NCBI GenBank assembly: GCA_902567495.1
Contig: CACFMO010000004.1
Coordinates: 1 to 64,000 of the forward strand
From: an uncultured Pelagibacteraceae bacterium
GTDB lineage: Bacteria > Pseudomonadota > Alphaproteobacteria > Pelagibacterales > Pelagibacteraceae
Reading direction: 5' to 3'
Length of the DNA stretch: 64,000 bases
Positions 2,581-13,078 of the stretch are shown piece after piece (the first letter of the stretch is position 1; each line of letters opens with the position of its first letter). Made by a program: the position numbers and the translations under genes. Under the pieces are notes generated by a model. That model was not told the origin of the DNA and made no database searches. It was given only the letters and a program-made list of their open reading frames with translations.

Positions 2581-4467
2581 TTACTTTTCAAGGAAACTTT
2601 TTAATTGTTTTGATCTGCTTGGATGCTTTAGCTTTCTCAGAGCTTTCGCCTCTATTTGCCTTATTCTTTCTCTGGTAACATTAAACTGTAAACCAACTTC
2701 CTCTAAAGTATGGTCAGTGTTCATTCCAATTCCAAATCTCATTCTTAGAACCCTCTCTTCTCTTGGTGTTAGGGAGGCTAAAATTTTAGTTGTTGACTCG
2801 CTAAGATTAGACCTGATAGCAGTATCTAAAGGCTGTAAAGCATTTTTATCTTCTATGAAATCTCCTAAGCTACTATCTTCTTCATCACCTACTGGTGTTT
2901 CAAGAGATACAGGTTCCTTAGAAATTTTTAAAACTTTTCTAACTTTTTCCAATGGCATAGCCAGTTTTTTTGCAAGTTCTTCTGGCGTCGCCTCTCTACC
3001 AAACTCACTTAATATTTGTCTTTGTGTCCTCACAATTTTATTAATCGTTTCGATCATGTGAACTGGAATCCTTATTGTTCTTGCTTGATCTGCTATTGAT
3101 CTAGTAATTGCTTGTCTGATCCACCAAGTAGCATAAGTAGAGAATTTGTATCCACGTCGGTATTCAAACTTATCAACTGCTTTCATTAATCCAATGTTTC
3201 CCTCCTGGATGAGGTCTAAAAACTGAAGACCACGGTTTGTGTATTTTTTTGCTATAGAAATTACCAACCTCAAATTTGCTTCAACCATTTCTTTTTTTGC
3301 AATTCGAGATTCTCTTTCACCCTTTTGTATTCTTTTAACTAATGATTTGAATTCTCCAACTGACAATTCTATTTTTTTACTAAATTCAATAAGTCTATCT
3401 CTTATTTCATGAAATTCTTTTTTATGTTTTTTAAAAAAGTTTTTCCATGTTTTGTTCTCTTTTAAAAATGTTTCAAATTTTGAATTTATTTCATTTCCTA
3501 CATAATATTTTATAAATTCTTCTCTTGAAATTTTATTTTCATTTGCAAGTCTTAGTAGGACACCTTCTAATGATAATATTTTTTTGTTCTCTTTGTAATG
3601 GGCCTGGACCAATTCTTCAACAACAGAGGGGCTTAATTGAAGGTTTTCAAAATCTTCAACTAGGATACTTTGTATTTTTTTAAGATTTTTGTTTTTAGAA
3701 ACTGACAACTCTTGAGAGTTTAGAATGCAATTAAGTTTTTCTATTTGATATTTTTTTAGTTTGGTATAATTTTTTGAGAGATTTTGAATAAGAGATATTA
3801 CTTTAGGTTTTATTTCTTCTTCCATTGCTGCAAGAGAAACATTAAATTCGTCATTTTGATCAACATATTCCTCTGTCTTTTCATCATTTTTATCTTTTGA
3901 CTCATCTTTTTTTTCTTTTGAATTATTGTTTTTTAATTTTTCTTTTGCAACTTTCTTTAAATTTTCATCTTCTGAATTATCATTCTCAAAATCTTCATAT
4001 GTTGAGTCGATGTCTATTATATCTCTAACTAAAAGTTCGTTTTTTTCAAGCTGGTCTTTCCACTCAAAGATTTTTTTTGAGATTAGAGGACTCTGAGTAA
4101 GAGCATTAATCATAACATTTTTTCCTGCCTCAATTCTTTTTGCAATTGCAATTTCTCCATCTCTTGATAGAAGTTCAACTCCACCCATTTCCCGTAAGTA
4201 CATTCTAATTGGATCATCACTTTTTTCTGAGGATTTTTCAGACTCAGCTTGGCTGACATCTTTTTTCTTCAGTGACTGAAATTCAGACTTTTTTGAGACT
4301 AACGTTACTTTTTTATCAAAAAGAATAATTAAAGCTTTTTCTAAATTTTCGTGTGAGCTATTTCTTTTACCTAGTGATTTTCCAAGTTCTTCATAAGTAA
4401 TAAAACCCCTATGAACACCTTTATCTAAAAGACGTTCAAATGACTTGGTTATTAGTTTGGTTTTCAT
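2581..4467 (-). CDS. rpoD: RNA polymerase sigma factor RpoD (sigma-70)
   Basis: Region 2/3/4 motifs: [96 protein letters not shown]. Confidence 0.97.
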
Positions 4468-4526: not shown

Positions 4527-6290
4527 TTACTCTTTATTTATCTTACTTTTAAGCTTTATTAAGTCAGAGTATGATTTTTCATCAAATTTCTCTATGAGCT
4601 TATTTTCTAGATTCTCAATTTTTTTAGAAAATTTGATATCATTAAGTTCTTTAAGAATTTCATTTAATAACTCAATTTGTTTTTCTTCATCTTTTTTTAA
4701 AAAAATATTTTTGATTACAGAGTTTTGGTTAATATCGCTTATCAAATTTAAATATCTTTTCGCTAATTCATCTAAATCTTTTTGATCAAATTTATGTTCA
4801 GATATAATCCCTAAAAGTTCTGACTTAAGCTTGTTAAGCTTACTACTCGAAAATTGAATATCATCAAAAAGCTCTGCTCTTGGTGAAATAATATTAGGGT
4901 GATTAAACATTATATACAAAATCGAATATTCTTTAATTTCCTCTTTAGAAAGATGTTCTTTTGCAAAAGAAATTTTTTTTGTCTCATTTAAAATTCTGTA
5001 ATTATTAATTATTTTGCCTTTACCTCTTTGTAAAGGTGTTAAATTTCTAATTTTTTCAAGATAGTTTTCAAGAATATATTTTCTTAAAGTTTTATCTTTA
5101 ATAGTCTCACAAAGATTTCTAAATTTTTTTTCAAATTTGGTCGAAGCAAAAGGATCAGATCTATCTAGATTATTTAAATAATTTTTCCAAATAAATTCTT
5201 CAATTGATAATTTGTTTGTTAAAAATTCTACAAAAGCTTTTTTTCCTTTTTCTTTTATAAAATCATCAGGATCAACTCCTTTTGATAATTTAACAAATCC
5301 AATTTTATTGCTCTCCTTTATGTGAGGTAGAAGACTTTCTGCAATACGCAAAGCTGCCCTTTGACCACTCACATCCCCGTCTAAACACAAAATTGGATTT
5401 GAAAAAAACTTCCAAATAAGATTAATTTGATTTTCTGTGAGTGCAGTCCCTGAGTTTGAAACAACATTTTTGATTCCAGCAGAATAAATACTTATAACAT
5501 CCATATAACCCTCGACAACTATAACTTCTGAATCTTTATTAGGAAATGATTTTGCCTTATCTAAATTAAAAATATGTTTACCTTTTTTATAAAATTCTGT
5601 TTCGGGTGAATTAATATACTTTGCGATTTTTTTATCTTTAATAATTCTTCCTCCAAAAGCCACTATATCGCCGACTATGTTTTTGATTGGAAATATAATT
5701 CTTGAGTGGAATCTATTTATATATTTTTTAAATTTTTCATTATTATAAAATAATCCAGTTTCCAAAATATTTTTTTCTGAATAATTTTTTATCAAATTTG
5801 AATAATAATCTGAGTTGCTCGGAACATATCCAATTTGAAACTCAAGAATGGTTTCTTTTCCAATTCCACGCTTGTTCAAATAATCCATCGAAAAATCAAA
5901 ATTTTCTAGAAGAAGTTTATGATGGTGGATGGTAAAATCTTTAAAAATATTTTTATAATTTTGGTATCTTTTTTCTTTCTCCACATCGAATTTAGAGAAT
6001 CTATATGGTTGCATTCCAGCTTGAGAGGCAAGTTGTCTTACCGCTTCTCCAAATTTTAATGATTGGGTTTTCATTAAGAAATCAAAGATATTACCATGTT
6101 CGCCGGAACTAAAGCAGTGATAAAATCCTTTTTCATCACTAACAGTAAACGACGGTGTTTTTTCAGATGTAAAAGGAGAAAGGCCGACAAACTCTTTTCC
6201 TCTTCTATTTAATTTTACGGTTTTTCCAACAACTTGTGAAACTTTTAATCTTAACTTTATTTCATCTAAATAATTTTTCGGATATTTCAT
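4527..6290 (-). CDS. dnaG: DNA primase DnaG with degenerate zinc-binding motif
   Basis: EKTPSFTVSDEKGFYHCF, TOPRIM region VIVVEGYMDVISIYSAGIKNVVSNSGTALTENQ; located next to rpoD. Confidence 0.95.
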   Translation of the reverse strand: MKYPKNYLDEIKLRLKVSQVVGKTVKLNRRGKEFVGLSPFTSEKTPSFTVSDEKGFYHCFSSGEHGNIFDFLMKTQSLKFGEAVRQLASQAGMQPYRFSKFDVEKEKRYQNYKNIFKDFTIHHHKLLLENFDFSMDYLNKRGIGKETILEFQIGYVPSNSDYYSNLIKNYSEKNILETGLFYNNEKFKKYINRFHSRIIFPIKNIVGDIVAFGGRIIKDKKIAKYINSPETEFYKKGKHIFNLDKAKSFPNKDSEVIVVEGYMDVISIYSAGIKNVVSNSGTALTENQINLIWKFFSNPILCLDGDVSGQRAALRIAESLLPHIKESNKIGFVKLSKGVDPDDFIKEKGKKAFVEFLTNKLSIEEFIWKNYLNNLDRSDPFASTKFEKKFRNLCETIKDKTLRKYILENYLEKIRNLTPLQRGKGKIINNYRILNETKKISFAKEHLSKEEIKEYSILYIMFNHPNIISPRAELFDDIQFSSSKLNKLKSELLGIISEHKFDQKDLDELAKRYLNLISDINQNSVIKNIFLKKDEEKQIELLNEILKELNDIKFSKKIENLENKLIEKFDEKSYSDLIKLKSKINKE

Positions 6291-6291
6291 T

Positions 6292-6747
6292 TTATTTTAA
6301 ATTTTCTTTTATTATTTGACTGACTTTTGAAAAATCCATAACATCTGCGTGTTCCTTTTTTAACGCTCCTATTACTTTGCCCATGTCTTTTATGGAGGAA
6401 GCACCTACTTGATTAATTTTTTCAATACACAGCTTTTTTGTTTCTTCATCATTTAGTTGTTTCGGCAAAAATTCATTTATAATTGATATTTCTGACAATT
6501 CATTCTCTAGAAGCTCTTTTCTTCCTGCTTTTTTGTAGGCTTCACAAGAGTCATTTCTTTGTTTTACCATTTTTTTTAAAAGTGATGTTAAATCACTGTC
6601 GGGTAATACATTTTTGTCCTTAATTTTTTTTGCAATTATGTTGTCTTTTATAGCTGCGATAATCAACCTTAAGGTGGAATAAGTTTTTTTGTCTTGAGCT
6701 TTTAGGGCTTCGCTTAGCTTAGTTTCTATTTTGCTTTGAAGGGACAT
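6292..6747 (-). CDS. GatB/YqeY domain-containing protein
   Basis: TLRLIIAAIKD...YKKAGRKELLENELSEISIINEFLPKQL is YqeY-like; adjacent to dnaG. Confidence 0.9.
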   Translation of the reverse strand: MSLQSKIETKLSEALKAQDKKTYSTLRLIIAAIKDNIIAKKIKDKNVLPDSDLTSLLKKMVKQRNDSCEAYKKAGRKELLENELSEISIINEFLPKQLNDEETKKLCIEKINQVGASSIKDMGKVIGALKKEHADVMDFSKVSQIIKENLK

Positions 6748-11475: not shown

Positions 11476-12141
11476 TTAAACTTCTACTTTCCAGTCTGTT
11501 TGAAAGGAAACATAGTTAATTTGTATACAACGTCTCTCTTTTTTTATCTCTTTTTTTTCCATCCCATGCCAAGTATTTGGTCCACTAGAAAAAAAATATC
11601 CATAGTTGTCCTTATATGGAACTGTTTTTATTTTATTTAATTTTTCATCATAAAAATCAGTCCCCAGGTTTTCAGACTCATTGAATGGATTAATAAATAT
11701 CAAGGACGATAAAAGTTTTTCCTTAATATCACAATGTGGTTTAAGCCAAAAACCTTGTCTATCACAAATTACCTCTAATCTAACATAAGAGTTTGCAAGA
11801 TCCTTTTTAATTAATTGGCCAATATATTGATAAACAGTTTTTGAACACAGCTCTTTTATAAAACTCGTTAGTTCAGGAAAATTTTTAGAATTTTCTTTGG
11901 TTACAAAACATCTATATTTTTTTGCTTTGCCACCTGATTTAATTCCTTCTCTAAATTTACCTTCTCCACCATCAATAGCTCTGGTTCCATCATAATTTAT
12001 TCCCTCAGAAACTGGATTTGCAATCTCTGCATTGCAAATTTCTTTGATTGCTAAATCTGTTAAAGGCCTTTTAATAGCCCAATGTGTAAAAGGTTTGTCG
12101 TAGGTTTCTAATCTGCTTTTAAGTGAATTAAATAATTCCAT
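11476..12141 (-). CDS. 2OG-Fe(II) oxygenase-like protein
   Basis: LKPHCDIKEKLLSSLIFINPF ... GPNTWHGMEK, HxD...H type arrangement. Confidence 0.6.
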   Translation of the reverse strand: MELFNSLKSRLETYDKPFTHWAIKRPLTDLAIKEICNAEIANPVSEGINYDGTRAIDGGEGKFREGIKSGGKAKKYRCFVTKENSKNFPELTSFIKELCSKTVYQYIGQLIKKDLANSYVRLEVICDRQGFWLKPHCDIKEKLLSSLIFINPFNESENLGTDFYDEKLNKIKTVPYKDNYGYFFSSGPNTWHGMEKKEIKKERRCIQINYVSFQTDWKVEV

Positions 12142-13078
12142 TTGTTTTCATTTTCTCTTTAACTAAAGTTGCAGCTTTATTTACTTCATCCAAGCCTGTG
12201 TAAGTCCAATTTTCAATTTTATTATCCAAATCCCTAATTATACCAAGTTCTTTAAATAATTTATAAAATTTGTCAAATCTATGTATGCTTCTTTTATTTT
12301 TCATCTGAGCAACGTATACTGGTTTACCAGTAATTGCAGCCTCAGAAATCATAGAAGTTGAGTCACAAGTAACTATTATTATATCTGCCAAACCAAGAGA
12401 AGATAAATACGCTTTTTTGTCCCTTTCCTTAATAACCAAATGATTATCGTTAAAATAATTAAATGCAAGTTTAACTATATTTTCTGGAGTTCGATAAGAA
12501 GGAATAACAATTAATTTATATTTTGAATAAACAAATAAATTTTTAATTTTTGCAAATGTCTCTGTCATTTGTTTTTCTGAAAAACTATAATATTTATTAG
12601 GTCCTCCAAGGATTAAGGTAATAATTTTTTTACCATCTGCTTTCGGATTAAGATAATTAACATTTTTTTTAATTTCATCGTTGGTCAGATAATGAATAGC
12701 GCCTTTAGTTCTTATAACATTGTCTCCTTCTAAATTGTCATGTTCTGGACAAATAATACAATCAAAGTTATCAAGCTTGACTTTTGGATCTTGAATATGA
12801 ATTGTAAAAACATCTTTATTAAATCTTTTTTTTAGCATAATTGAAGGTATTACACTTTTACGTCCACACGAAATTATTACCTTGGAATCACATATAAACC
12901 TATTTTCTAAAATGCGCTCTGTTACTGGAGTAAATTTTGGGGGAATAATACTCCAAATTTTTTTAAGCTTGATTGTTTCGTGCTTAAACTTTAAACCTAA
13001 AGCTTTAGACAGACCCTCAACCTGGCTTATCATTCCATGCATACCCTGGGTTAATAGAAGGGCTTTCGTTTTGAGCAT
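12128..13078 (-). CDS. Mitochondrial fission ELM1 family protein
   Basis: LLLTQGMHGMISQVEGLSKALGL; VIVTCDSTSMISEAAITGKPVYV. Confidence 0.8.
   Translation of the reverse strand: MLKTKALLLTQGMHGMISQVEGLSKALGLKFKHETIKLKKIWSIIPPKFTPVTERILENRFICDSKVIISCGRKSVIPSIMLKKRFNKDVFTIHIQDPKVKLDNFDCIICPEHDNLEGDNVIRTKGAIHYLTNDEIKKNVNYLNPKADGKKIITLILGGPNKYYSFSEKQMTETFAKIKNLFVYSKYKLIVIPSYRTPENIVKLAFNYFNDNHLVIKERDKKAYLSSLGLADIIIVTCDSTSMISEAAITGKPVYVAQMKNKRSIHRFDKFYKLFKELGIIRDLDNKIENWTYTGLDEVNKAATLVKEKMKTNGII

Follow-up and report, generated by a model that had tools for sequence, protein, structure and literature searches.

DnaG primases read the template trinucleotide with an N-terminal zinc domain, which works together with the polymerase core. 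Its three cysteines and one histidine are called highly conserved, and zinc is said to stabilise the motif and to sense DNA, although its precise role is admitted to be unsettled (review PMC6163395). Textbooks treat the zinc site of this essential enzyme as universal. The dnaG gene in the stretch of DNA analysed here (64,000 nt from an uncultured Pelagibacteraceae bacterium; the window) raises the question of whether a replicative primase can dispense with this metal site. Its zinc ligands C/H/C/C are replaced by S38/T41/C59/S62, which leaves Cys59 as the only one remaining. A first-pass annotation had reported the motifs 38-SPFT-41 and 59-CFSS-62 with three ligands gone in a gene otherwise full length and equipped with TOPRIM; residues and coordinates proved to be exactly as claimed, and the 587-aa open frame retains VEGYMD and DGD. 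The relevant features of the window are:

2581–4467, minus strand: rpoD, downstream neighbour of dnaG (Pfam Sigma70 domains)
4527–6290, minus strand: dnaG, DNA primase, 587 aa, single copy (TIGR01391; Pfam Zn_ribbon_DnaG, DNAG_N and Toprim)
5325–5531, minus strand: TOPRIM catalytic domain, residues 254–322, with VEGYMD and DGD motifs (Pfam Toprim_4)
6006–6290, minus strand: N-terminal zinc-ribbon-type domain, residues 1–95, without zinc ligands (AlphaFold2, Foldseek, dN/dS)
6096–6119, minus strand: second ligand pair and the positions that co-vary with it, H58-C59-F-S61-S62-G-E64-H65 where canonical DnaG has x-C-F-G-C-G-A-x
6168–6179, minus strand: first ligand pair, C-P-F-H in canonical DnaG and here S38-P-F-T41
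6292–6747, minus strand: yqeY (GatB/YqeY), upstream neighbour of dnaG (Pfam YqeY)

The N-terminal domain reads GLSPFTSEKTPSFTVSDEKGFYHCFSSGEHGN, and the codons at the four ligand positions are TCT for S38 (6177–6179), ACA for T41 (6168–6170), TGC for C59 (6114–6116) and TCC for S62 (6105–6107). The protein matched the TIGR01391 dnaG model with 397 bits over residues 3–410 (cut-off 283.6), and its N-terminal domain matched Pfam Zn_ribbon_DnaG with 101 bits (cut-off 24.9). The domain resembles the CHC2 zinc finger (PF01807) in sequence and predicted fold and lacks the Cys-His-Cys-Cys ligands of that family. No second CHC2-domain gene was found in the same genome, dnaG being the sole CHC2 match. 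The gene order carA-yqeY-dnaG-rpoD is shared with Sphingomonas parapaucimobilis, and the yqeY context recurs in Sphingomonas and Sinorhizobium records; in all of these DnaG is of the zinc type. The full-length model match, the TOPRIM Glu and Asp motifs, the housekeeping locus and the single copy together identify the gene as the DnaG primase. Two further open reading frames of the window, both on the minus strand, had no Pfam or NCBIfam family match: one of 518 aa adjoining rpoD (1013–2569), and one of 221 aa (11476–12141) that overlaps the end of an ELM1-like gene (12128–13078).

One explanation would be a sequencing or assembly error, or a domain decaying as a pseudogene. The closest relatives (92–96% identity, separate assemblies) carry the same DnaG motif, and the Cys/His/Cys ligands are gone in 111 of 111 Pelagibacterales loci, some of which derive from the same genomes and some from independently assembled single-cell genomes. 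Throughout these loci the first position is Ser, the second Lys, Thr or Ser, the third Cys and the fourth Ser or Thr. The first-pass annotation had named consensus errors at the ligand codons among the observations that would overturn its reading; the shared ligand loss across Pelagibacterales excludes them, and chance can hardly account for it. Among the close relatives, dN/dS was 0–0.07 in the domain and 0.05–0.15 in the remaining protein. Because the domain value lies below that of the rest of the protein, the zinc-free domain is selected rather than decaying, and purifying selection acts on it more strongly than on the remainder. Together with the open frame of 587 aa and the intact TOPRIM motifs, these comparative data and dN/dS values led us to reject error and decay, whose probability we regard as negligible.

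Aligning DnaG across Alphaproteobacteria, as the first-pass annotation had proposed for locating the loss, placed it in all Pelagibacterales loci examined and also in 17 other sampled families. In this one-per-family sample, 117 genomes have the complete CHCC set and 17 are zinc-free besides the Pelagibacterales one. A profile search with the SAR11 domain retrieved many further zinc-free proteins, including some from genomes of 5–9 Mb. Named cases are Methylobacterium bullatum (L321), a megaplasmid of Methylorubrum extorquens AM1 (L322), Pelagibacteraceae records and the DnaG encoded by Caulobacter phage Sansa (L325). The zinc-free form also occurs in 20 of the 80 viral contigs fetched (L363–L442), Sansa's IMG/VR record among them. 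The four ligands are kept in Sinorhizobium meliloti, Paracoccus denitrificans, Sphingomonas parapaucimobilis, Tistrella and E. coli, and in a sample of other non-alpha Pseudomonadota.

Three side observations accompany this distribution. Phage DnaG-type primases come in both zinc and zinc-free forms, which points to exchange with hosts. A small alphaproteobacterium outside Pelagibacterales, assembled as a single contig of 1,410,127 bases (G146, locus L184), has a zinc-free DnaG. Finally, a single sampled family (f115) contains both forms, in G396 (L230) and G229 (L306); this mixture could reflect recent transfer or bin contamination (G396 comprises 420 contigs with 4% contamination).

In an alignment of 197 DnaG proteins (mostly cellular, with a few plasmid records and one phage), two states were found and no intermediates: 138 proteins have all four ligands and 59 have the zinc-free pattern S-x-[C/D]-[S/T/A]. 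The domain thus reads either CPFH…CFGC or SPFx…H[C/D]F[S/A][S/T]x[E/K]HG. Residues beyond the ligands follow the same division. Position 61 is Gly in 136 of 138 zinc forms and Ser (55/59) or Ala (4/59) in zinc-free ones; position 64, mostly Ala in zinc forms, is Glu or Lys in 55 of the 59; and Leu17 of the zinc forms becomes Val. Asp replaces Cys at position 59 in 12 of the 59 zinc-free proteins, and none of them has gained a new conserved Cys or His. All 59 keep the TOPRIM Glu motif and 58 the Asp motif as searched by regular expression, the exception reading DSDESG. Two zinc-free domains, from genomes of 8.8 Mb (L277) and 3.8 Mb (L279), contain neither Cys nor His, and the same holds for a viral one (L382:2501-2782). 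Because no such residue occurs anywhere in the domain, zinc independence of these three lineages is hard to escape, and it is likely for the homologous SAR11 form.

The structure prediction proposed for the N-terminal domain gave a consistent picture. An AlphaFold2 model built from the window and SAR11 sequences without templates had a mean pLDDT of 91 and the canonical arrangement. Its best Foldseek matches were 1d0q (TM 0.89, rmsd 0.9 Å) and 2au3 (TM 0.82), the zinc-binding domain of B. stearothermophilus primase and the A. aeolicus primase, respectively. The Cys/His-free viral domain was modelled with a pLDDT of 92.5 and a TM of 0.92 to 1d0q. Because AlphaFold2 is inclined to predict the fold of a family regardless of ligands, these models indicate that the zinc-free sequences are compatible with the ribbon fold and do not speak to its stability without metal. 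With this proviso, the zinc-independent fold suggested by the first-pass annotation appears well supported by the predicted structure and the three Cys/His-free relatives.

Metal might still be bound through other residues, for example H58, C59 or D59, E64 and H65. H58 and H65 are indeed more conserved in zinc-free forms (0.95 and 0.97) than in zinc forms (0.80 and 0.67), and H58, C59, E64 and H65 are invariant within SAR11, where a residual metal site stays conceivable. Both histidines are, however, also frequent in canonical domains as non-ligands, Lys and Glu are about equally frequent at position 64 of zinc-free forms, and the domains L277, L279 and L382 offer no Cys or His at all. We therefore consider such an alternative site very unlikely.

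The reading we prefer, and hold to be highly probable, is that the window gene encodes a genuine housekeeping DnaG that functions without zinc (a 'C-minus' form), a recurrent alphaproteobacterial alternative rather than a SAR11 peculiarity. A working primase is the most likely interpretation because the fold appears conserved, the TOPRIM motifs are intact, selection is strong and no second CHC2-type primase gene accompanies it. In the mechanism we propose, the N-terminal ribbon would keep its canonical fold and, as before, hold the template DNA for presentation to the RNA polymerase core. In place of the loop–loop clamp that zinc provides in canonical DnaG there would be a co-evolved polar set, namely Ser38, a non-His residue 41, Cys or Asp59, Ser61, Ser or Thr62 and Glu or Lys64, among which hydrogen bonds and a salt bridge probably join the two knuckles. 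The form may have spread by lineage inheritance combined with some transfer or repeated conversion.

Why zinc was lost is a separate question. The first-pass annotation had offered metal saving in a streamlined marine bacterium as a plausible reading, and DnaG of the oligotrophic SAR11 bacteria is indeed uniformly zinc-free. The distribution argues otherwise: the same form is found in phages and in Alphaproteobacteria with large genomes (2.5–8.8 Mb), soil species as well as Methylobacterium and Methylorubrum among them; the four ligands are kept in 12 alphaproteobacterial genomes of 1.2 Mb or less; and genomes with zinc-free DnaG have a median size of 2.8 Mb, against 2.4 Mb for those with the zinc type (Mann-Whitney p = 0.61). 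SAR11 topoisomerase I, moreover, retains its Cys4 ribbon. With genome size unassociated and small genomes keeping the ligands, streamlining was rejected as the cause, and we attach very little probability to it.

On contig C6 of the same genome, ribosomal proteins L36 (L330) and L31 (L331) also lack zinc cysteines. This could be taken as a sign of SAR11-specific zinc saving; we discarded it as such because our survey showed a zinc-free L36 throughout the class, with 0–1 Cys in 30 of 30 alphaproteobacterial L36 loci read regardless of DnaG type, and L31 likewise according to the literature, which describes a class-wide zinc-free ribosomal set (PMC3087516).

A broader version of the idea is that zinc economy across the whole class favoured zinc-free DnaG whatever the genome size, a tendency already proposed for the ribosomal proteins of the class. 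In Alphaproteobacteria nearly every zinc ribosomal protein has given way to its zinc-free counterpart (PMC3087516), in agreement with the L36 survey. Most sampled alphaproteobacterial families, however, have a zinc DnaG alongside a zinc-free L36, so that DnaG departs from the ribosomal pattern. Class-wide economy is thus possible, if rather doubtful as the explanation; because most families keep zinc DnaG, it does not by itself account for the DnaG pattern.

The history of the two forms was approached with a tree of the catalytic core (197 proteins) built without the zinc domain, which is too short on its own for a resolved tree. On the core tree the zinc-free label is scattered and needs 18 changes, at least four of them forced by well-supported branches; with a mixture model on a reduced set, one clade uniting the zinc-free proteins was not rejected (p-AU 0.064). 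Outside the signature columns, the domains of SAR11/other zinc-free pairs are more alike (0.57) than those of zinc-type/SAR11 pairs (0.48), compared at 30–35% catalytic identity. This extra likeness would fit gene or domain transfer, common constraint, or both, and phage carriage is a plausible vehicle for the spread of zinc-free DnaG. More speculatively, and on balance improbably, the two forms could be ancient interchangeable DnaG types that were repeatedly exchanged in Alphaproteobacteria and phages, the zinc-free one reading a different start trinucleotide or having relaxed specificity. If true, the rules for starting Okazaki fragments would differ in SAR11, Methylobacterium and their relatives.

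With a replicative primase that is present in single copy and naturally lacks zinc, the role of the metal would become directly testable, both in a bacterial group that ranks among the most abundant on Earth and in Methylobacterium and Caulobacter phage systems that can be cultured. Such an enzyme is also relevant to primase inhibitors directed at the zinc domain. Compared with the canonical DnaG zinc domain (1d0q, 2au3; PF01807), the window form is homologous and has the same predicted fold, position and gene context, and it differs in the absence of three of four ligands and in the co-varying changes G61 to S and A64 to E or K. Zinc ligands have also been lost from the TOPRIM-type primase zinc domain of metazoan Twinkle, a T7 gp4-like protein. 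Twinkle, however, has additionally lost the catalytic primase motifs and primase activity (PMC3610141), whereas the window DnaG has intact motifs and is the only CHC2-type primase gene of its genome. Searches of open-access literature turned up no earlier account of DnaG proteins that form a class without zinc; zinc-plus and zinc-minus ribosomal proteins and the cysteine loss of Twinkle were known before, and zinc-free DnaG is apparently new.

A close parallel to this DnaG is offered by the C-minus ribosomal proteins S4, L31, L33, L36 and S14, which likewise form C-plus/C-minus pairs of one essential nucleic-acid protein with a mixed phylogenetic distribution, Alphaproteobacteria being rich in C-minus forms (PMC3087516). 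For the C-minus form of S4, a salt bridge has been proposed as the substitute for zinc (PMC3087516). C-minus ribosomal proteins are sometimes paralogous and zinc-regulated, whereas in the window genome the single-copy replicative primase itself has switched, with no second copy. Like the C-minus class, DnaG combines ligand loss and a retained (predicted) fold with purifying selection, and it has a distinct sister form that bears zinc. The division into zinc-plus and zinc-minus forms, known from the ribosome, would thereby reach the replisome.
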